This document shows positions 3,132-28,288 of a stretch of DNA of 51,334 nt, one piece after another; position 1 is the first letter of the stretch, and the number at the start of each line of letters is the position of its first letter. Made by a program: the position numbers and the translations under genes. The notes beneath the pieces were generated by a model that saw only the letters and a list, made by a program, of their open reading frames with translations, ran no database searches and was not told the DNA's origin. This stretch comes from Gammaproteobacteria bacterium (lineage in GTDB: Bacteria > Pseudomonadota > Gammaproteobacteria > Steroidobacterales > Steroidobacteraceae): the NCBI GenBank assembly GCA_003137095.1, contig PLET01000096.1, positions 20,590 through 71,923 of the forward strand. Reading direction: 5' to 3'.

Positions 3132-4510
3132 ATTCGTCCATCAGCAGACACCTGGTGTTTTGGCTCGCCATCCCGCTCACGCTGCTCGCGCTGTGCGGCG
3201 CACTGGCGCATTACTTCAACAACGCCGCCCCCGAACTGCTCGGCAGCGACCGCCGGCTGAGGGAGGCCGCGCTGGCCGTGGAACGGCGCCTTGAGGTCAG
3301 GGGCGGCCGTCTGCTGGTAGATATCGCACCGAACGATTCAGCCCTGGCCGCCCTGGGCGTGACCTTTGCGGTGCGCAACACGGCGCTGCAGCTGCTCGCC
3401 GGCGATGCCCGATTGCCGGCCGTTGCGGTCACGGACGCCAACGGCGTGTTCACGGTCACCACCATCGACCGGCGCCGGGTGCGCTCGCTCAGCACGCGGA
3501 TCGCGACCAGCCTGGGAGCGGTGAATGTCACGGTGGCGGATACCCTGCACCCCATCGAACCGGCGGCACGCTTCGGCTTTTTGAGCACCCTGCTCTGGGA
3601 CTTCGTACAGCTCGACATCACCCTGGTGCTGGTGTGGGTGGGCATCCAGCTCGGCCTGCGGCCGGTGAAGCGGCTGCGCGATGAGATCGCCGAACGCTCG
3701 CCGCTCGATCTGCGGCCGATCGACTCCCCGGTGCCACGCGAAATGGCGCCGCTGACCGCCACGCTGAACCGGCTGTTCGGGATGCTGCGCACCTCGGTGC
3801 AATCCCAGCAGCAATTCATCGCCAACACCGCGCATCAATTGCGCACGCCCCTCACCGGCATGCTCGCACAGTTGGACCTGCTGGTGGCCGAACCCGCGGC
3901 GGCGGCGGTCAAGGGCCGCCTGCTGACCTTGCAAGAAAGCGTGCGCCAGCTGTCGCACTCCGCCAATCAGCTGCTGTCGCTGGCGCGCACCGACCCGGCG
4001 GTCAACGTGGCCGCCAGGAATCAGCCCGTGAGCCTGGGGCAGCTCGTCGGCGAGGTGGTGGCCCGCTTCTTCGATCGTGCCCTGCAGTTGAACATCGATC
4101 TGGGCGTCGAACTGGCACCGGCGGTGGTGCTCGCCGACCCGGCGCTGCTCGATGATCTGTTGAGCAACCTGTTGGACAATGCGCTCAAGTACACCCCCAA
4201 CGGCGGCCGGGTCACGGTGAGCGCCGGCCAACAGGGTTCAAGGCCCATGCTGGCGGTCGAGGACAACGGCGCCGGCATCCCCGAAGCCGAGCGCCAGCCT
4301 GTGCGCCAGCGGTTTTATCGACTGCCGGATGCCCCGGGGCACGGCAGCGGCCTCGGGCTCGCCATCGTCGAGCAGATCGCGCGGCTCTACGGCGCGTCGG
4401 TGGCCATCGCGAGCGGCGCCGGCGGCGTCGGCACCCGGGTGACCGTGCAGTTTCCGGAAACCGCGCGCGCGCCCGGCAGCGCTGGGAGCCGGCCCGAGTA
4501 TTCGGCGTGA
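3128..4510 (+). CDS. Sensor histidine kinase (TctE/QseC-like)
   Basis: A 460-residue membrane sensor kinase. One TM helix lies at about 9-27, then a periplasmic sensor of about 125 residues (2CSK N-terminal type), a second TM at about 155-178, a HisKA domain with His236 in the H-box NTAHQLRTPLTG, and a HATPase_c domain with N-box LLSNLLDNALKYTP, G1 VEDNGAGIP and G2 GHGSGLGLAIVEQ. NTAHQLRTPL is typical of the TctE group, which often senses carboxylates. The GTG at 3128 is chosen because it overlaps the regulator stop and places the first TM at the N-terminus; longer upstream frames run through the regulator gene. The ligand cannot be told from sequence. Confidence 0.92.
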   Translation: MNSSISRHLVFWLAIPLTLLALCGALAHYFNNAAPELLGSDRRLREAALAVERRLEVRGGRLLVDIAPNDSALAALGVTFAVRNTALQLLAGDARLPAVAVTDANGVFTVTTIDRRRVRSLSTRIATSLGAVNVTVADTLHPIEPAARFGFLSTLLWDFVQLDITLVLVWVGIQLGLRPVKRLRDEIAERSPLDLRPIDSPVPREMAPLTATLNRLFGMLRTSVQSQQQFIANTAHQLRTPLTGMLAQLDLLVAEPAAAAVKGRLLTLQESVRQLSHSANQLLSLARTDPAVNVAARNQPVSLGQLVGEVVARFFDRALQLNIDLGVELAPAVVLADPALLDDLLSNLLDNALKYTPNGGRVTVSAGQQGSRPMLAVEDNGAGIPEAERQPVRQRFYRLPDAPGHGSGLGLAIVEQIARLYGASVAIASGAGGVGTRVTVQFPETARAPGSAGSRPEYSA

Positions 4511-4601
4511 GCCGCGTTGGCTGGACCCGGCAACTGCGAACCGGTTCTCATTATGGCGAGGCGGCGCCACGCCCGTCAGGTTCGAGCAAGTTTGCTTCTT
4601 T

Positions 4602-5177
4602 ATGATGCGTCCCATGAACGGGCAACCGAAGCGGCCGCCGCCGCGTCAGCGCGGCTTCACCATCATGGAACTGGTGCTGGTGGTGTTGATCGTCGCCATC
4701 CTGGCGACGGTCGCCATACCCTCGTACCTGTCGGTCACGAATTCCTATCGGATCTCGAGCGAGGTCAACTCGCTGCTCGGCGACATGCAATATGCGCGCG
4801 CCGAGGCGATCAAGGAAGGTCAGACGGTCACGGTCTGCGTTTCGAGCAGCGGCACCGGCTGCACCGGCGGCACCAGCTGGCAGAACGGTTGGATCGTGTT
4901 CTCCGACGTGGCCAACAATCAGACCTACGCCGCCGCCACCGATGCCCTGCTGCGGGTGCAGGTCCCTTTCACCAGCACGGACACCTTCGTCGCCAACAAC
5001 GCCTTCACGGCCATCACCTTCAACCGCGAGGGTTTCGCGCAGACCTTCGCCGGCACCAACAACGTCACCGTCACCCTGCACGCCGTAAAGCCCACCACGG
5101 CCTCGACGCGCTGCCTGCAGATCACTCCCGTGGGCATGCTCGCCACCGAACTGGCGGGCGCCGGGAGCTGCTCGTGA
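4602..5177 (+). CDS. fimT: Type IV pilus minor pilin, GspH/FimT family
   Basis: A 191-residue pseudopilin. The prepilin peptidase site is RGF-TIMEL (Gly-1, Phe+1, Glu+5), followed by the hydrophobic helix VLVVLIVAILATVAIPSY. A FimT/GspH-type C-terminal region follows, with NSLLGDMQYARAEAIKEGQ and paired cysteines in the VCVSSSGTGCTGG loop. It is the first gene of the fimT-pilV-pilW-pilX-pilY1-pilE operon, whose products form the pilus tip-priming complex. Start codons at 4602, 4605 and 4614 are all possible; 4614 (MNGQPK) gives a more usual leader length. The stop overlaps the next start (GTGA). Confidence 0.9.
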   Translation: MMRPMNGQPKRPPPRQRGFTIMELVLVVLIVAILATVAIPSYLSVTNSYRISSEVNSLLGDMQYARAEAIKEGQTVTVCVSSSGTGCTGGTSWQNGWIVFSDVANNQTYAAATDALLRVQVPFTSTDTFVANNAFTAITFNREGFAQTFAGTNNVTVTLHAVKPTTASTRCLQITPVGMLATELAGAGSCS

Positions 5178-5806
5178 AACGCCGGCCACCCCGCTGCCCG
5201 CTGGACCGCCCTGGCCGGCGCGCGGCGCCGCGACCCGCGGCGCGCGGCTTCAGCCTGGTCGAGGTGCTGGTGTCGCTGGTGGTGGTGTCGGTGGGTCTGC
5301 TCGGACTCGCCAAGATGGAATCGCTCGCCATCGCCAGCACCGGCGTGGCGAGTTCGCGCTCGCTGGCCGCCATCCTGGCGTCGAGCCTGGCCGATGCCAT
5401 GCATGCCAATCGCAGCTATTGGGCCACCGCGGGCACCCCGCCGGCCAGCTTCACCGTGAGCGGCTCGGGCGTGGGCAACATAACCGATTCGACCAACACC
5501 CTGAACGTGGCCGTCAACTGTGCGACCGGCGTGACGCCCTCGTGCAGCGCGGCGCAGGTCGCTGCCTACGACGTGCAGCAATGGCAGCTCTCCCTGCAGC
5601 CGGTGCTGACGGGCTATCTCGCCACGGTCAGCTGCTCGACACTGACCACCACCCCGGTCAATTGCAACATCCAGCTGCAGTGGGTGGAGCGCGCCGCCCA
5701 GGCTCAGACGCAGTACGGCAACACTGCCGCACAGAACACGGCGGCGTCGGCGGCGCTTGCCACGGTGCAATACACCGACCCCTACATTCTGGACGTTCAG
5801 CCATGA
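5174..5806 (+). CDS. pilV: Type IV pilus minor pilin PilV
   Basis: A 210-residue prepilin-like protein with a long basic Pro/Arg-rich leader (about 25 residues), the cleavage site ARGF-SLVEV (Glu+5) and the helix LVSLVVVSVGLLGLAKMES, as in PilV. A PilV-type C-terminal region follows with cysteines in VNCATGVTPSCSA and SCSTLTTTPVNC. It works with PilW, PilX and FimT in the priming complex at the pilus tip in the inner membrane. The GTG at 5174 overlaps the fimT stop, and the end overlaps the pilW ATG, so expression is coupled. The open frame extends far upstream, but that part overlaps fimT in another frame and is not coding. Confidence 0.9.
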   Translation: MKRRPPRCPLDRPGRRAAPRPAARGFSLVEVLVSLVVVSVGLLGLAKMESLAIASTGVASSRSLAAILASSLADAMHANRSYWATAGTPPASFTVSGSGVGNITDSTNTLNVAVNCATGVTPSCSAAQVAAYDVQQWQLSLQPVLTGYLATVSCSTLTTTPVNCNIQLQWVERAAQAQTQYGNTAAQNTAASAALATVQYTDPYILDVQP

Positions 5807-6558
5807 GCCGCCGGCGCCCGCAGCGGGGATTCACCCTGATCGAGCTCATGATTGCCATGCTGATCGGGCTGTTCCTGCTGGGCGGCTTGCTGACGCTGGT
5901 GGCGGGCATGCGCACCACCTTCGGCATGCAGGGCGGCCTCGCCCAGCTGCAGGACAGTGAGCGCCTCGCCATGACGCTGCTCGCGGACGTGATCCAGACG
6001 GCAGGTTATTACCCCACTCCCACGGTCAATACCGCCGTCACCGCCATGCCGGTCAGCGGTGTGTACACCACCGCGGGACAGTCGCTCTACGGCACCGACG
6101 GCGCCGCGCCCGGCGACAGCATCACGGTGCGCTACCTGACCGCCGGCAACGACGGCGTGATCGACTGCACCGGCAACACCTACACGGTCGCCACCACACT
6201 GGTCAATACCTTCCAGCTGACCGCCTTGGGCACCACGCCCCAGACCTACGCCCTGACCTGCTCGCTCAATGGCGCCACGGCCGTGCAATTGATCAGCGGC
6301 GTGACCAACCTGCAGATCCTCTACGGCGTGAAGACCAACACGACCTCCTCCGGGGACTCGATCGACAGCTACCTGACCGCCACCCAGGTGACGGCGGGCG
6401 GCTACTGGCCCAGCGTCAACTCGGTGCTGCTCACCCTGACCTTCACCAATCCGCTGTATGGCACGGCGCAGGGCCAGACCACCAGCGTGAATGTGCCGCA
6501 GACCTTGAGCTTCACCCGCGTGATCGGCGTCATGGCCAAGATCGGAGTGGCGACGTGA
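5803..6558 (+). CDS. pilW: Type IV pilus minor pilin PilW
   Basis: A 251-residue protein with the class III signal site QRGF-TLIEL (Glu+5), the helix [21 protein letters not shown] and the PilW-type segment [20 protein letters not shown]. The rest is Thr/Ser/Gly-rich, as is usual for the beta-rich head of PilW. It is a minor pilin that, with PilV, PilX and FimT, promotes pilus assembly and PilY1 presentation. The ATG at 5803 overlaps the pilV stop by 4 bp, and the stop overlaps the pilX GTG by 4 bp. Gene order and overlaps match the minor pilin operons of Pseudomonas and Xanthomonas. Confidence 0.9.
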
Positions 6559-21071: not shown

Positions 21072-21860
21072 CTAGTGCTCCGAGAAATTCGGTTCGCGCT
21101 TCTCGAAAAAGGCGCGCACGCCCTCCACGCAATCATGCGTCTCGAGGGACATCTCCTGGGCGCTGCGCTCCGCCCGCAGCTGCTGCTCGAGCGAATGGTC
21201 GAAGGTTGAGGCATGCAGGGCGCGGATCTGGCCGAGCACCGCGGTCGGCCCGCTTGCGAGCTTGCGTGCCACCGACTGCGCATGCGTGACCACCTGCGCA
21301 TCCGGTACAACCGCATACGCGAGGCCCCATTCGCGCGCCATCTTCGAATCGATCTTCTCCGCCAGCATCAAGGATGACAGCGAGCGGCTCGCGCCGATGC
21401 AGCGCGCAAGATGAAAGGTGATTCCCGCGTCCGGCACCAGACCGAGCCGCGCGAAAGAGGGGCAGAAATAGGCGCCTTCACCGGCGACGATGATGTCGCT
21501 TGCCAGTGCCAGACTCATCCCGGCGCCGACGGCCGCGCCGTTGACCGCCGCCACGATCGGAAATCGGAATGCGCCCAGGCGCAGGATCAGCGGGTCCATG
21601 AAGCGGCGCATCTCGAAGTGCGCGCGCTGGCGCGCCTGCTGGGTGGTCAGGTCGATCGAATGCAGATCCAGCCCGCTGCAAAAGACATCGCCGCTGCCGG
21701 TCAACACCACGGCGCGTGCGCCGCTGTCGCCCTTTTGGATTTGATCGAGCGCCACGTGCATGGCGCGAATGACCGTGATGTCGATGGCATTGCTGACGGC
21801 GGCGCGCGTGATGGACAGCGTCGCAACGCCATCGGAGACCTCGAAGGACAGACTGTTCAT
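21072..21860 (-). CDS. Enoyl-CoA hydratase/isomerase family protein (PaaG-like)
   Basis: A 262-residue crotonase-fold enzyme. The oxyanion-hole segments are GDVFCSGLDLHSID and AAVNGAAVGAGMSLALASD. FCPSFARLGLVPDAGITFHL has the PaaG/PaaB-type pattern with Asp in place of one hydratase Glu, suggesting an isomerase rather than a classic hydratase. It ends in EGVRAFFEKREPNF, the usual crotonase C-terminus. The substrate is unknown and no other beta-oxidation genes are nearby. The gene is convergent with mmuM and divergent from the MFS-hydrolase fusion. Confidence 0.88.
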   Translation of the reverse strand: MNSLSFEVSDGVATLSITRAAVSNAIDITVIRAMHVALDQIQKGDSGARAVVLTGSGDVFCSGLDLHSIDLTTQQARQRAHFEMRRFMDPLILRLGAFRFPIVAAVNGAAVGAGMSLALASDIIVAGEGAYFCPSFARLGLVPDAGITFHLARCIGASRSLSSLMLAEKIDSKMAREWGLAYAVVPDAQVVTHAQSVARKLASGPTAVLGQIRALHASTFDHSLEQQLRAERSAQEMSLETHDCVEGVRAFFEKREPNFSEH

Positions 21861-22034
21861 TGATTACCCCCTTGATGGATCCACGCCGCTGCGCGCATCG
21901 ACCCCCAGCCATTGACTTGCGTTCGGATGTCGACCTTAAATGCGTTCTGTTGCGCCGATCATGCCTCCGGGTGCGGTTCGCCGCAAGCAGCGGGATGGCC
22001 GATTCGAGCGGTGGCGCACGGCGGCGGCGCGAAT

Positions 22035-25000
22035 ATGTCGAAAGTGCCCGGCGTCGGGCCTAAAGGTCGATTCTTGATCAGTAAACGTCTGGCGGCAGTT
22101 TTGGCGGCCCGCGGCATACATTATGGCTGGGTGGTGGTGGCGGCGACGTTTCTCACCATGCTGGTCACGGCCGGCGCCGTCGGTGCACCCGGCGTGCTGC
22201 TGCTGCCCCTCGAGCGCGAATTCGGCTGGTCGACCGCCGCCATCTCCTCGGCGCTGGCGACGCGGCTGCTGCTGTTTGGCCTGATGGGCCCGTTCGCGGC
22301 GGCCTTCATCAACCGCTATGGCGTGCGCAACGTTGCGCTGAGCGCATTGACACTGATCGCCGCCGGACTGACCGCCTCGCTCGCCATGACGGCCCTGTGG
22401 CAGCTGGTGCTGTTGTGGGGGGTGATCGTGGGCCTGGGCACCGGCCTGACCGCCCTGGTGCTCGCAGCGACCGTGTCCACGCGCTGGTTCAGCGCGCGGC
22501 GCGGCTTGGTGGTCGGCCTGCTGACGGCGAGCTCCGCCACCGGGCAGTTGGTGTTCCTGCCGCTGCTCGCGGCGGTGGCGATGCATGCCGGATGGCGCAG
22601 CGCCTTGGTGATCATCTGCGGCCTGCTCGGCGTCGCCGCCACAGCGGTGTGGCTGGTGATGGTCGACCGGCCGGCCGACCTCGGTCTCAAGCCCTATGGC
22701 GAGGCCGGTGCGGCGCCCACCGACGCCCGAGCCGCGGCTCCCGCAGCGGCGCCGGCCGCCGCCGCTGCGTCCGCGGCCGGCGGGACCTCGATCGCCGGGG
22801 CTGCGCTCGCCGCCCTGGCCGCGGCCGCCCACGAGCGCACGTTCTGGGTCCTGTTCGCCACGTTTTTCATTTGCGGGGCGAGCACCAACGGCCTCATCCA
22901 GAATCACTTCATTCCGTTTTGTTCGGACAACGGCATGCCGGAAATCGCCGCCGCCGGTATTCTGGCGACCATGGGCGTCTGTGATTTCCTGGGCACCGTC
23001 GGATCGGGCTGGCTGTCCGACCGCTACGACGCGGCGCGCCTGCTGTTCTGGTACTACGGATTGCGCGGACTCGCCCTGCTCTATCTGCCGTTCGCCGTGT
23101 TCACCTTCCAGGGGCTGTCGCCGTTTGCGCTGTTCTACGGCCTGGATTGGATCGCGACGGTGCCGCCCACGGTGGCGCTGACGGTGAAGACCTTCGGGCG
23201 CGAGAAGGCCAGCCTGGTGTTTGGCTGGATATTCGCGGGGCATCAGCTGGGCGCGGCCTGCGCGGCCTTCGGCGCCGGCTTGATGCGGACCGAATTGTCG
23301 ACCTACCTGCCTGCCTTCGTGATCGCCGGCGCGCTGTGCATCGTGGCCGCCGGCCTGGTGCTGCTGTTGCGATCCGCGGGCACGAGGCGCCCCGCCGGTG
23401 CGGCAATCGCGAACCTTGTGATCGGCAGCGTCATCGCGGCCGCCTACCCCAGCGGCGGCGCGGTCGCGGCCGAGACGCTCGCCAATGAGACACCGCTCTA
23501 CTTCCAGCCGAAGTCGGAAACCTTCGATTACGTGAAGCGCGAGGTCATGATCCCGATGCGCGACGGCACGCGGCTGAAGACGGTGATCCTGATCCCGCGC
23601 GGCGCCCTGCATGCGCCGATCCTGCTGACGCGCACCCCCTACGGCGCCGCCGACCGCACTTCGAAGAACACCAGCGCGCACCTGGCCGCGGTGCTCGACA
23701 GCACGGATGTCGCCGACGATGCGGTGCTGAATGGCGGTTACATCCGCGTCTTGCAGGACGTGCGCGGCAAACACGACTCCGAGGGCGACTATGTCATGAC
23801 CCGTCCGTTGCACGGGCCGCTGAACCCGACCGCCGTGGACCACTCGACGGACGCCTACGACACCATCGACTGGTTGGTGAAAAACATTCCCGAATCGAAT
23901 GGCAAGGTGGGGATTCTCGGCATCTCCTATGACGGCTTCACCTCGCTGATGGCGCTGGTCCATCCGCATCCGGCGCTGCGCGCCGCGGTGCCCATCAACG
24001 CCATGGTCGATGGCTGGCGCGGCGATGACTGGTTCCACAACGGCGCGTTTCGCCAGGACAACCTGATCTACGCCCACGATCAGGAGGCCACGCGCGGCGG
24101 CGAAGTCGGCTGGTGGTCCGACCATTACGATGACTACGACACCTGGCTCGCCGCGGGTTCCGCCGGCGACATGGCGCGGCTGCACGGCCTCGGGCAGATC
24201 GGTTTCGCGGTCAAGATGATGACTCATCCGGCTTACGATGCGTTCTGGCAGGCGCAGGCCCTGGACAGGATCCTCGCCGCCGAACCCATCGGCGTGCCGG
24301 TGATGCTGGTGCACAGTTTGTGGGACCAGGAGGATATCTACGGCAACATCGCCGTATACAAGGCCATCAAGCCGCAGGATCGGGAATCGAAGGTGTTTCT
24401 GGTGATCGGGCCGTGGTTCCACCACCAACAGCGGCTCGACGGCAGCGCCATCGGCGACATCGAATTCGGCAGCGACACCGCGCTCTATTTCCGGATGCAC
24501 CTGCTGCGCCCGTTCCTGGATCATTTTCTGAAGGACGACCCGCCGCCGCTCGCGTTGGCGGCGGTGAACGCCTTCGAGACGGGAACCAACCGCTGGCTGG
24601 CGCTTCCCGGCTGGCCGCTCGGCTGCGCGTCGGGCTGCACCACCGTGCCGTCGAAGCTCTATCTTCAGCCGGGGGGCAAGCTGGCCTTCCAGGCGCCGCC
24701 GCCGGCCTCGCCGGACTATGCCGCCTATGTCTCCGACCCCGCCAAGCCGGTGCCTTACCTGCCGCGCCCCATCCACATCGAGGGCGACGGCGAGAAGGAC
24801 TGGCAAAGCTGGCTGGTCAGCGATCAGCGCGACGCCGCCGCCCGCACCGACGTGCTGAGCTTCGAGAGCGCACCCTTGACCTCGCCGCTGAAAATCAGCG
24901 GTGAGCCCATCGCCAACGTATTCGCCTCGACCAGCGGCACGGACGGCGACTTCGTGGTCAAGCTCATCGACGTCTACCCGGAGGAGGTCGGGCGTCAGCC

Positions 25001-25340
25001 GCGGCTCGGCGGGTATCAATTGATGATATCGGCCGACATTTTCCGCGGCCGCTACCGCCTGGGATTCGATGACCCACAGCCGCTGCCGGCGGGACGCAAA
25101 CTGCTGTTCCGCTTCGCACTGCCCACCGCGAATCATGTCTTCCTGCCCGGTCATCGCCTGATGGTACAGGTGCAATCCAGCTGGTTTCCGCTGTACGATC
25201 GGAACCCGCAGACCTTCGTCGGAAATATCTTTTTCGCCAAACCCGCCGATTACCAGGCAGCCACGGTCAGGATCTTCGACGCCGGCCCGCAGGCCGGCTA
25301 TGTCGAATTGCCCGTCGTGAAGGCCGACGGGGCGCAATAA
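22035..25340 (+). CDS. MFS transporter fused to alpha-amino acid ester hydrolase (CocE/NonD family)
   Basis: One open frame encodes 1101 residues. Residues about 25-455 form an MFS carrier of about 12 TM helices (HYGWVVVAATFLTML at the start) with an Ala-rich central loop. A thirteenth hydrophobic stretch (IANLVIGSVIAAAYPSGG, then VAAE) looks like a signal peptide and would place the rest in the periplasm. Residues about 475-1101 are a full hydrolase: DYVKREVMIPMRDGTRLKT, nucleophile Ser631 in GISYDGF, DGWRGDDWFHNGAFRQ, Asp764 in LWDQED, His796 in GPWFHH, and a jelly-roll C-terminus with QSSWFPLYDRNPQTF. This closely resembles the Xanthomonas citri alpha-amino acid ester hydrolase that acts on beta-lactam side-chain esters and amides. 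The start at 22035 (MSKVPG) is chosen over an upstream frame of low-hydrophobicity sequence. No stop or frame break lies at the junction. Confidence 0.88.
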   Translation: MSKVPGVGPKGRFLISKRLAAVLAARGIHYGWVVVAATFLTMLVTAGAVGAPGVLLLPLEREFGWSTAAISSALATRLLLFGLMGPFAAAFINRYGVRNVALSALTLIAAGLTASLAMTALWQLVLLWGVIVGLGTGLTALVLAATVSTRWFSARRGLVVGLLTASSATGQLVFLPLLAAVAMHAGWRSALVIICGLLGVAATAVWLVMVDRPADLGLKPYGEAGAAPTDARAAAPAAAPAAAAASAAGGTSIAGAALAALAAAAHERTFWVLFATFFICGASTNGLIQNHFIPFCSDNGMPEIAAAGILATMGVCDFLGTVGSGWLSDRYDAARLLFWYYGLRGLALLYLPFAVFTFQGLSPFALFYGLDWIATVPPTVALTVKTFGREKASLVFGWIFAGHQLGAACAAFGAGLMRTELSTYLPAFVIAGALCIVAAGLVLLLRSAGTRRPAGAAIANLVIGSVIAAAYPSGGAVAAETLANETPLYFQPKSETFDYVKREVMIPMRDGTRLKTVILIPRGALHAPILLTRTPYGAADRTSKNTSAHLAAVLDSTDVADDAVLNGGYIRVLQDVRGKHDSEGDYVMTRPLHGPLNPTAVDHSTDAYDTIDWLVKNIPESNGKVGILGISYDGFTSLMALVHPHPALRAAVPINAMVDGWRGDDWFHNGAFRQDNLIYAHDQEATRGGEVGWWSDHYDDYDTWLAAGSAGDMARLHGLGQIGFAVKMMTHPAYDAFWQAQALDRILAAEPIGVPVMLVHSLWDQEDIYGNIAVYKAIKPQDRESKVFLVIGPWFHHQQRLDGSAIGDIEFGSDTALYFRMHLLRPFLDHFLKDDPPPLALAAVNAFETGTNRWLALPGWPLGCASGCTTVPSKLYLQPGGKLAFQAPPPASPDYAAYVSDPAKPVPYLPRPIHIEGDGEKDWQSWLVSDQRDAAARTDVLSFESAPLTSPLKISGEPIANVFASTSGTDGDFVVKLIDVYPEEVGRQPRLGGYQLMISADIFRGRYRLGFDDPQPLPAGRKLLFRFALPTANHVFLPGHRLMVQVQSSWFPLYDRNPQTFVGNIFFAKPADYQAATVRIFDAGPQAGYVELPVVKADGAQ

Positions 25341-25371: not shown

Positions 25372-26466
25372 TCACTGGGCGTCGCGCTTTCGATCCTTCT
25401 CCTGTGGCTGCTTCGCCGCAGGTTTCTTGGCCTGAACTTTTTTCTGCTGCTGGCCCGGAGGGATGGCGCGCGGCTTGGCGTAGGCCGCCTGCGGGTTCGA
25501 AGTACCGGGATGCGCCGCGCCGGCATTGAAATTGACGCCGCCGTTCGGATTGGCTCCGCCTGCCGGTGGCGCTCCGCCTGCCGGTGGCGCTCCGCCCGCC
25601 GGTGGCGCTCCGCCCGCCGATGGCGCTCCGCGTGCTGCAGCCGACGCGCGCGCCGGCATCACCGATGGCGCACTGAAGGCGCTCGGCCGCGGCGTGGCCG
25701 CGATGGCCGGACGGCCCTGATTGACCTTGGCCAGCAGCGCGCGGTTCCTGCCGGCGTCCTGGACGTGCTGCAATTGCGGCGCGGTCGGCGCAACATGCGG
25801 TTCCCGCGCCGCCATCTGTTCCTGCGGCGACGGCGCTGCCGCCACTCCGCCGGTGCCGCCGTTGTAGCTCACCCGGCTGCTGACGTTGTTGATGACGGTC
25901 TCGTTGTAGGTGTTGTGCACGATAGTCACGTTGACGTTGGTGACGGCGGTGTTGTAGGCAAAAGAATTGTTGACCCATCGGCCGCCGGCAAAGCCGACGC
26001 CGCCGTAGCCATAGCCGTAGTTGACGCCGCCGTAGAAGCCCACATGCGGGCCCCAATATCCGGCATGGAACAGGTAGACGCCGCCGCCCCAGCCCCAGTA
26101 GCCCGGTGTCCACAACAAGCCCACCCGTGGCGGCGAAACCCAGGTCCCGGGCACCCAGTAATATCCCTCGGGGCCCCAGGCCCAGTAGCCGGGCGTCCAT
26201 AGATAGCCCGGCTCGGGAATCGGCGGCTGTTCATAGTCCGGCAGCGGCGGCGGCGCTTCGGCTATGCGCACTTCCGCCACCGGTTCGGCATAGGCCGGCG
26301 GCGGAGGCGGCGGGGCATACACCCGCGGGGGCGGTGAATAAACGGGCGGCGGCGGCGCGTACACCGGCGCCGGCTGCACGATGCAGCCCTGCAGGCCGAG
26401 CGCGGCGGCCACGGCCGCGGCGCCCAACGCCGATATCCGATGCGATCGATTCGATGACTCAAGCAT
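25372..26466 (-). CDS. YXWGXW-repeat lipoprotein with Pro-rich and GGAPPA repeats
   Basis: A 364-residue lipoprotein. The signal peptide ends in the lipobox LQGC (Cys at about 28). A Pro/Tyr-rich spacer follows (about 30-85), then repeats of the YXWGXW type (LWTPGYWAWGPEGYYWVPG, LLWTPGYWGWGGGVYLFHAG). The segment NTAVTNVNVTIVHNTYNETV is typical of this family. Then comes a Gly/Ala/Pro region with four GGAPPA units, and a Lys-rich tail. Function is unknown; members are predicted surface or periplasmic lipoproteins. The tandem DNA repeat at 25553-25624 lies in it, and the motif at 26519-26529 lies 52 bp upstream. It is convergent with the fusion gene. Confidence 0.82.
   Translation of the reverse strand: MLESSNRSHRISALGAAAVAAALGLQGCIVQPAPVYAPPPPVYSPPPRVYAPPPPPPAYAEPVAEVRIAEAPPPLPDYEQPPIPEPGYLWTPGYWAWGPEGYYWVPGTWVSPPRVGLLWTPGYWGWGGGVYLFHAGYWGPHVGFYGGVNYGYGYGGVGFAGGRWVNNSFAYNTAVTNVNVTIVHNTYNETVINNVSSRVSYNGGTGGVAAAPSPQEQMAAREPHVAPTAPQLQHVQDAGRNRALLAKVNQGRPAIAATPRPSAFSAPSVMPARASAAARGAPSAGGAPPAGGAPPAGGAPPAGGANPNGGVNFNAGAAHPGTSNPQAAYAKPRAIPPGQQQKKVQAKKPAAKQPQEKDRKRDAQ
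25553..25624. repeat. In-frame 18-bp tandem repeat (GGAPPA units)
   Basis: Four 18-bp copies related to GCTCCGCCTGCCGGTGGC (two identical, two with one or two base changes) sit head to tail in the lipoprotein gene, followed by a degenerate partial copy. The period is a multiple of three, so copy changes alter length without shifting frame. Confidence 0.88.
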
Positions 26467-26617: not shown

Positions 26618-28288
26618 TCACGCGGTGTCGAGACTGCGCTTGTAGGTTTCCGGGAGGAAAAACACGCCGATCACCAACGTCGCGGCTGCAACCACCACCG
26701 GATACCAGAGCCCGTAATAGATGTCTCCGGTCGCGGCCACCATCGCGAAAGCCGTGGTCGGCAGGAAGCCGCCGAACCATCCATTGCCGATGTGATAGGG
26801 CAGCGACATCGCGGTGTAGCGGATTCTCGTCGGGAACAACTCCACCAACAAGGCCGCGATCGGGCCGTACACCATGGTCACGTACAGCACCAGGATGAAC
26901 AGGATCAGAATCACCATCGGCTTGTTGATGGTGGCCGGATTGGCCTTGTCCGGATAGCCCAGACCCTTCAGCGCCGACTTGGCGCCGCTTTGAAAATCGG
27001 CGATTGCCGCCTTGAGCGGCTTGCCGGCCAATATCTTCGGGTCGGGCGCAGTCAGCGTGTTCGAACCGAGGCGGATCTGCGCCACCGTGCCCGGCCCGGC
27101 GTCGACGCGCCGGTACGTCACGCCGGCCTTGGCGAGGAAGCTCTTGGCGATGTCACAAGACGTCGAGTCGAATCGGTTCTTGCCGATGGGGTCGAACTGG
27201 AACGAGCACTCGTTGGGATCGGCGATCACCGACACCGGTGCCGACGTCTGAGCGGCATACAACGCCGGATTGGCATAGCGCGTCAGCGACTCGAACAGCG
27301 GAAAATAGGTGAGCACCGCGAGCAGGCAGCCCGCCAGGATGATGGGCTTGCGGCCGATCTTGTCGGACAGCCAGCCGAAGAACAGGAAGAACGGCGTCGC
27401 CAACGCAAGGGCGATGACGATCAGCACATTGGTGGTGGCTCCGTCCACCCGCAGCATTCTTTCCAGGAAAAACAGCGCATAGAACTGGCCCGTGTACCAC
27501 ACCACCGCCTGGCCCATGACGGCGCCGAGCAGCGCGATGATCACCACCTTCAGATTGACCCAGCGGCCGAACGCCTCCTTGAGCGGCGCCTTCGAGCCGG
27601 CACCCTGCGCCTTCATCTTCAGGAAAACCGGGCTTTCGGCGAGCTGCATGCGGATCCACAGGGAAATGGCCAACAGCAGGATCGACACCAGGAACGGCAG
27701 CCGCCAACCCCAGACCTTGAAGGATTCCTCGCCGAAAAAGCCGCGTGCACCAATCACCACCAGCAGCGCCAAGAACAGCCCGAGGGTGGCCGTGGTCTGG
27801 ATCCAGCTCGTATACAGTCCGCGCTTTTCCGGCGGCGCACTCTCCGCGACATAGGTTGCGGCGCCGCCGTATTCGCCGCCGAGCGCAAGTCCCTGCAGCA
27901 GGCGCAGCGCGATCAATAGGACCGGCGCCGCCACGCCGATGGAATCGTAATTCGGCAGCAATCCCACCGCGAACGTGGCCGCGCCCATGATGCTCATGGT
28001 GACCAGAAAGGTGTGTTTGCGCCCCACCAGGTCGCCGAGCCGTCCGAACACCAGCGCGCCGAACGGGCGCACCGCGAAGCCGGCGGCAAATGCAGCCAGC
28101 GCGAAGATGAACCCGGTGACTTCGTTGACCGCGGAGAAGAATTGGGCGCTGATCACGGTCGCGAGCAGCCCGTATAGGTAGAAATCGTACCATTCGAAAA
28201 TCGTGCCCAGCGACGCAGCGCCGATGACCAAAAAATCGCTCTGGGTGCTCTTCAGGCTCTTTTGAAGATCTTCCGCCACGGTGGACAT
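26618..28288 (-). CDS. MHS-family MFS metabolite:H+ symporter
   Basis: A 556-residue inner-membrane transporter with about 12 TM helices. Diagnostic MHS features are GTIFEWYDFYLYG in TM1, RPFGALVFGRLGDLVGRK (MFS motif A), LRLLQGLALGGEYGGAATYV and WLSDKIGRKPI in the second half. It is longer than the usual 430-450 because of an insertion of roughly 110 residues in the C-terminal half (about 345-455), predicted periplasmic, with a cysteine pair (DPNECSF and STSCDIA). The substrate is unknown; relatives carry organic acids or osmolytes such as proline and betaine. ATG at 28288; the gene is 49 bp downstream of the DUF3014 stop side on the same strand. Confidence 0.88.
   Translation of the reverse strand: MSTVAEDLQKSLKSTQSDFLVIGAASLGTIFEWYDFYLYGLLATVISAQFFSAVNEVTGFIFALAAFAAGFAVRPFGALVFGRLGDLVGRKHTFLVTMSIMGAATFAVGLLPNYDSIGVAAPVLLIALRLLQGLALGGEYGGAATYVAESAPPEKRGLYTSWIQTTATLGLFLALLVVIGARGFFGEESFKVWGWRLPFLVSILLLAISLWIRMQLAESPVFLKMKAQGAGSKAPLKEAFGRWVNLKVVIIALLGAVMGQAVVWYTGQFYALFFLERMLRVDGATTNVLIVIALALATPFFLFFGWLSDKIGRKPIILAGCLLAVLTYFPLFESLTRYANPALYAAQTSAPVSVIADPNECSFQFDPIGKNRFDSTSCDIAKSFLAKAGVTYRRVDAGPGTVAQIRLGSNTLTAPDPKILAGKPLKAAIADFQSGAKSALKGLGYPDKANPATINKPMVILILFILVLYVTMVYGPIAALLVELFPTRIRYTAMSLPYHIGNGWFGGFLPTTAFAMVAATGDIYYGLWYPVVVAAATLVIGVFFLPETYKRSLDTA

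Follow-up and report, generated by a model that had tools for sequence, protein, structure and literature searches.

The cytochrome b-c1 precursor FbcH of Bradyrhizobium is a polytopic protein with an internal signal peptide and a periplasmic domain, and is cut by signal peptidase. A carrier and an enzyme are read from a single ORF in LplT-Aas, which, as described in PMC11416262, joins an MFS flippase to an acyltransferase in some bacteria. The alpha-amino acid ester hydrolases (AEHs), as PMC3890990 describes them, are tetrameric enzymes with a catalytic triad, oxyanion tyrosines and a carboxylate cluster.

Here we analyse a stretch of 51,334 nucleotides from a member of the Steroidobacteraceae (the window), in which an MFS carrier runs in frame into an AEH (Table 1). 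The window protein resembles FbcH in its polytopic part, internal signal peptide and predicted periplasmic domain, and by eye a signal peptide with a signal peptidase site stands between its two domains, as in polyproteins of this type. The partners in FbcH form a conserved respiratory pair, whereas the MFS-AEH pair of the window has been seen together in one species. With LplT-Aas the window protein shares the union of MFS and enzyme in one ORF; in the account of PMC11416262, however, that enzyme remains at the cytoplasmic face and handles the transported lipid, whereas the enzyme of the window lies beyond an internal signal peptide, so that a cytoplasmic enzyme side of the LplT-Aas type is not predicted for it.

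The fused frame and its two halves

The preliminary description of this DNA had proposed an MFS carrier and an AEH in one frame of 1101 residues, and translation of 22035-25340 together with Pfam bears this out: MFS_1 (residues 39-370), Peptidase_S15 (510-797) and PepX_C (848-1060) all score above their curated cut-offs. Judged from the sequence, TTG 22074 is a likelier start than ATG 22035, because it has AAAGG upstream at a spacing of seven bases (by eye) and gives an N-terminus of about the same length as in stand-alone MFS relatives; the ATG is without a Shine-Dalgarno match.

Table 1. Positions of the fused frame, its parts and its surroundings in the window
Feature	Position	Strand	Basis
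Enoyl-CoA hydratase family gene, conserved upstream neighbour	21072..21860	-	synteny
Upstream element CGATCATGCC..CCGCAAG, common to DNA upstream of congeners' stand-alone AEH	21956..21987	+	alignment
Fused ORF, ATG start	22035..25340	+	1101 aa; translation: single terminal stop, none internal
Fused ORF, likelier TTG start	22074..25340	+	1088 aa; AAAGG upstream (by eye), N-terminal length fits MFS relatives
MFS carrier, complete up to approximately its natural C-terminus	22074..23390	+	MFS_1; alignment with 7 stand-alone relatives that end near this point
Ala-rich expanded central loop of MFS, residues 222-266	22698..22832	+	alignment with relatives, hydropathy scan
AEH signal peptide, now internal, residues 453-479 (hydrophobic core 456-470)	23391..23471	+	N-terminal equivalent in 9/9 congeneric orthologues
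Signal peptidase I-type site Ala-Val-Ala-Ala-Glu, residues 476-480	23460..23474	+	sequence; similar Ala-ending sites in congeners
Mature AEH, residues 480-1101	23472..25337	+	Pfam, structure match, alignment
Catalytic Ser631	23925..23927	+	aligned to AEH 1mpx
Catalytic Asp764	24324..24326	+	aligned to AEH 1mpx
Catalytic His796	24420..24422	+	aligned to AEH 1mpx
WXXGXW-repeat protein gene, conserved downstream neighbour	25372..26466	-	synteny

The MFS half matches the MFS_1 profile at E 5e-29 (101.7 bits against a cut-off of 33.4). Ahead of the junction, 12 segments were picked out by a hydropathy scan; one of these is the Ala-rich middle loop, so that one expected helix was missed. The curated models closest to the carrier are mostly small-carboxylate transporters, all below cut-off; the NCBIfam thresholds for L-lactate and oxalate/formate transporters were not reached (114.5 bits where 320 are required for the former, 57.6 where 374.85 are required for the latter).

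The hydrolase half aligns best with the AEH structure 1mpx, the nearest solved structure to it (E 2e-223), and this alignment confirms the triad of Ser631, Asp764 and His796 that had been suggested earlier. With AEH residue numbers matched by hand on the same alignment, the oxyanion tyrosines Y536 and Y632 are present, as are D665, E766 and D767 of the carboxylate cluster that binds the alpha-amino group in AEHs, and all eight checked active-site residues are invariant among 28 aligned relatives. The same triad, tyrosines, cluster and PepX_C domain are found in the AEHs 1mpx and 2b4k/2b9v and in the S15/CocE protein 4pf1. By these sequence features the half is predicted to be an alpha-amino acid ester hydrolase (EC 3.1.1.43). 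A structure prediction with rows for the AEH half only reached a mean pLDDT of 48, too poor to help. The AEH end branch is 0.21 in a poorly resolved tree with many forks open, against 0.30 for neighbour genes; it appears no longer than theirs and gives no sign of speeding up. Two rows of this tree (L011 and L013) contain stops, probably through wrong orientation, and are meaningless, while its pairing of G151 with G152 agrees with the neighbour-gene tree.

In seven comparisons with relatives for each half, dN was below dS in both the MFS half (0.23-0.43 against 0.85-1.27) and the AEH half (0.15-0.19 against 0.82-1.72), values that are averaged over long branches and are no proof of selection after the fusion. 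The fusion is known from a single genome, a draft assembly of 129 contigs that is 92% complete and 4% contaminated. Four other matches to the fused protein were found there, two MFS-type (27-28% identical) and two hydrolase-type (28% and 33%, partial); because these are only 27-33% identical, neither half has a close second copy in the draft, and no second AEH was found in it. An assembly chimera is an unlikely source of the fusion, because both flanks keep the gene order of the congeners and the composition of the MFS differs little (its GC is 0.694, with 0.663 for the whole window, and its GC3 is 0.872, compared with 0.825-0.861 for the AEH and four neighbour genes).

The locus in related genomes

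We searched 23 genomes of the genus, including that of the window. Nine of the 22 others carry an AEH 70-75% identical to the window's, and in the remaining 13 none was shown at 70% identity or above. All nine orthologues are stand-alone, each with its own start and, by eye, a signal-peptide-like stretch; they are separate chains, whereas the window's AEH has an MFS ahead of its signal peptide. Eight of them keep the window's order of enoyl-CoA hydratase, AEH and WXXGXW protein on one contig; in the ninth (G157) the AEH lies in two pieces on two contigs, flanked by the same genes. No intact MFS lies between hydratase and AEH in any of the nine, nor did the genus search find an intact copy of the window's MFS in any congener. 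Because the congeners have a stand-alone AEH and no intact MFS at this site, the MFS is, on the evidence of synteny, an addition in front of a resident AEH.

The upstream element precedes the MFS in the window and the AEH in congeners. Its core, ATCATGCC, is present in 9/9 aligned sequences (the window and eight congeners: L131-L136, L138 and L036); its second half differs by one base in two of the congeners, with one change within CCGCAA in G151. What precedes the fusion is therefore ancestral AEH upstream DNA. The element can be read in several genomes as a short peptide like MPPxxxxRKD, and Rfam at gathering scores gave no match in the window, the element included. Ahead of it, at 21912-21940, TTGACT-17-CTTAAA resembles by eye the TTGACT-17-ATTAAA at the same place in G150 and is a possible shared promoter; a promoter scan found none, and this pair was not among its output. 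A second MFS (Sugar_tr and MFS_1; 26618-28288, minus strand) lies close to the fusion and is matched in five of the eight syntenic congener stretches and in G157; the three stretches without a match are those of G152, G151 and G155.

At E 1e-60 or better, relatives of the window's MFS occur in 8 of 216 other genomes of the family; 368 further genomes from the class gave none at 1e-60, which is a sampling result, as other genomes drawn from the phylum gave some, and none was found in viral contigs. In a midpoint-rooted tree that carries a long-branch warning, the window's copy groups (100/99) with MFS from Azospirillum, Methylobacterium, Rhizobium and other genomes of the phylum, and only one of the eight family relatives (G047) falls inside this group, the other seven lying outside. 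The nearest named kin are alphaproteobacterial. The MFS genes of Azospirillum and Rhizobium plasmids (NZ_CP032342, NZ_CP032325 and NZ_CP072868) are 62-68% identical to the MFS half, stand alone near a TetR gene, with SDR and thiolase genes too in Azospirillum, and no AEH was found nearby; among four plasmid records looked at, the three annotated ones have TetR near the MFS. Horizontal acquisition of the MFS is the simplest reading of this distribution.

One congener retains a trace of such a gene. In G151 (L135) the gap between the upstream element and the free AEH holds an ATG-initiated frame of 13 codons in total, followed after a one-base shift by IHYGWVVIAATLVTMLVT, which is the beginning of an MFS of the window's kind (blastn to the window 53/65 nt, E 5e-12). 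The stub is frameshifted, spans about 31 codons and starts 165 nt before the free AEH's own start. When it was compared with the window and 17 other MFS loci, the best match was the window (81.7% over 60 nt), followed by Rhizobium (79% over 53). The stub shows that a separate MFS gene stood at the same place as in the window, unfused to the AEH. Such a separate gene could then have become fused in one lineage and been deleted in a second. The sister of G151 is G152 (100/100) and not the window, the placement of which is itself poorly resolved; the MFS would thus either be older than the split, with several losses, or have arrived twice. In the intergenic regions of the other seven congeners, blastn for an MFS remnant gave one match, 30 nt in G130, which falls in the Ala-rich loop and was taken as chance. 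The gap in G157 contains a Fic-family gene (L156:647-2173, minus strand), whose longest ORF starts with the conserved upstream element's ATG, and the gap therefore takes up genes readily. The window, G151 and G157 have three different contents at this one site.

The junction and the fate of the hydrolase

Seven stand-alone MFS relatives end at, or at most about 15 residues beyond, the window's LLLRSAGTRR. Directly after this motif comes PAGAAIANLVIGSVIAAAYPSGGAVAAE, in place of the congeners' AEH signal peptide, and the TLANETP that follows corresponds to their TLPSETP-like mature AEH start; no intergenic DNA is left between the MFS end and the signal peptide. The proposal that the junction preserves the ancestral hydrolase signal peptide, made in the preliminary description, agrees with the signal-peptide-like beginning (by eye) of the free AEH in all nine congeners, and the periplasmic location that it assigned to the enzyme would follow from the same stretch.

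Signal peptidase sites obey the -3/-1 rule. By eye, the junction stretch is built like a signal peptide, with a core of about 15 residues followed by Pro-Ser-Gly-Gly and Ala-Val-Ala-Ala, and its site is intact; the core scores lower in hydrophobicity than helix 12 (1.56, compared with 2.30 for the helix). Because the site is intact, cleavage and release of the AEH would be at least as likely as its staying attached through a thirteenth helix.

Two readings would give the hydrolase a start of its own. The first supposes an assembly or consensus error, with MFS and AEH as two overlapping or adjacent genes whose boundary is hidden by one missing or extra base; this is very unlikely. A single draft assembly and a GTGA overlap at 23418-23421, with a stop one frame away (by eye), would be compatible with it, but homology to MFS proteins stays in frame to residue 451 and the signal peptide then continues in that frame, while a start at 23418 has no Shine-Dalgarno match and would yield a signal peptide without basic residues, unlike those of the congeners. 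The second, which we regard as equally improbable, is that translation also begins internally, for instance at TTG 23367, and yields free AEH, so that the fusion is partly bypassed. This codon lies at about the position of the congeners' AEH start and would provide basic residues in the signal peptide, but its Shine-Dalgarno match is three bases only, a length that none of the internal starts at the junction exceeds.

We consider it probable that the window encodes a lineage-specific MFS-AEH fusion, made as a polyprotein and most likely cut by signal peptidase I. Synteny shows that the MFS gene entered the locus of a resident AEH, behind the ancestral upstream region and ahead of the AEH coding start. 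In the window's lineage the stop of the MFS, the DNA between the two genes and the ribosome site and start of the AEH would then have been lost, the end state of which is what is seen today. One message would give one chain of twelve MFS helices, a cytoplasmic tail and the old signal peptide. The MFS would insert with its C-terminus inside, the former signal peptide would cross the membrane and the AEH would fold in the periplasm, where signal peptidase I would most likely cut at Ala-Val-Ala-Ala. The AEH would then be free in the periplasm like any other, and the MFS would keep one short additional helix at its C-terminus. The lasting effect would be tied expression at a 1:1 ratio rather than a coupled machine.

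Rarity of the fusion and its meaning

The fusion looks real and rare. A search for MFS with S15/CocE architecture had been proposed at the outset, and full-length searches turned up neither a widespread or conserved fusion of this kind nor a second single case in the following scopes. Across 150 genomes of the family including the window's, with at most five candidates scored in most genomes, only the window matched over both halves among the matches listed. The same was true of the 23 genomes of the genus and of 398 genomes of the phylum (E 1e-30, at most two candidates scored per genome). None of the loci of the best 80 of 586 GTDB relatives held a match to the window's MFS, and among 448 plasmid records with a match none had one place covering 80% of the query. 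With five MFS queries, which distant MFS may escape and with some loci short, an MFS adjoined the AEH in 0/80 AEH loci; with the same number of queries, one lay somewhere in the flanks in 3/80. Conversely, no AEH match was found near relatives of the window's MFS in 17 MFS loci. Among the titles of open papers listed, none concerned an MFS-AEH or MFS-CocE fusion.

A candidate second fusion, G002:C166 (29%, residues 105-1096), proved to be two genes, an MFS (L127 2749-4026) and an S15 hydrolase (4090-5853), and long open frames around MFS matches in G094, G140, G058, G771 and G870 had no AEH match. The S15/CocE hydrolase of G002 (28% identical, outside the close AEH relatives) stands behind a different MFS with a short gap between them (L127 2749-5853); loose MFS-S15 links of such a kind therefore exist. 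In Caulobacter sp. 602-1 a tandem pair of AEH-type genes was seen (L112 6001-9782).

Little suggests that the two halves act together. An uncleaved bifunctional protein, with the signal peptide as helix 13 and a tethered periplasmic AEH feeding its product to the carrier, is unlikely. Such a protein would be consistent with a hydrophobic junction stretch long enough to span the membrane, with the small-carboxylate transporters among the carrier's closest, below-cut-off models and, on the account in PMC11416262, with the existence of MFS-enzyme fusions such as LplT-Aas. The intact cleavage site argues against it, however, as do the reduction of the MFS to a stub in G151 and the 0/80 AEH loci with an adjoining MFS and 0/17 MFS loci with an AEH; AEH tetramers should also be hard to tether, and would suit release better than attachment to 12 helices. 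Less likely still is a physical link, through helix 13, of the periplasmic AEH to an importer of carboxylate type that would take over the product as soon as the enzyme has split amino acyl esters or amides; if this were true, the carrier's substrate would name the natural substrate of the window's AEH. The earlier suggestion that the fusion points to the natural substrate of AEHs is not supported, the MFS being a later addition, present as a stub in G151, with 0/80 and 0/17 loci linked.

The polyprotein that we favour says little on the natural role of AEHs. The G151 stub shows that the carrier gene can stand unfused at the AEH site, and the fusion would be a clean case of the birth of a bacterial polyprotein, in which a carrier gene was added, its stop disappeared and an existing signal peptide was put to new use. 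The protein is also suited to testing whether signal peptidase I can act behind a chain of 12 helices.
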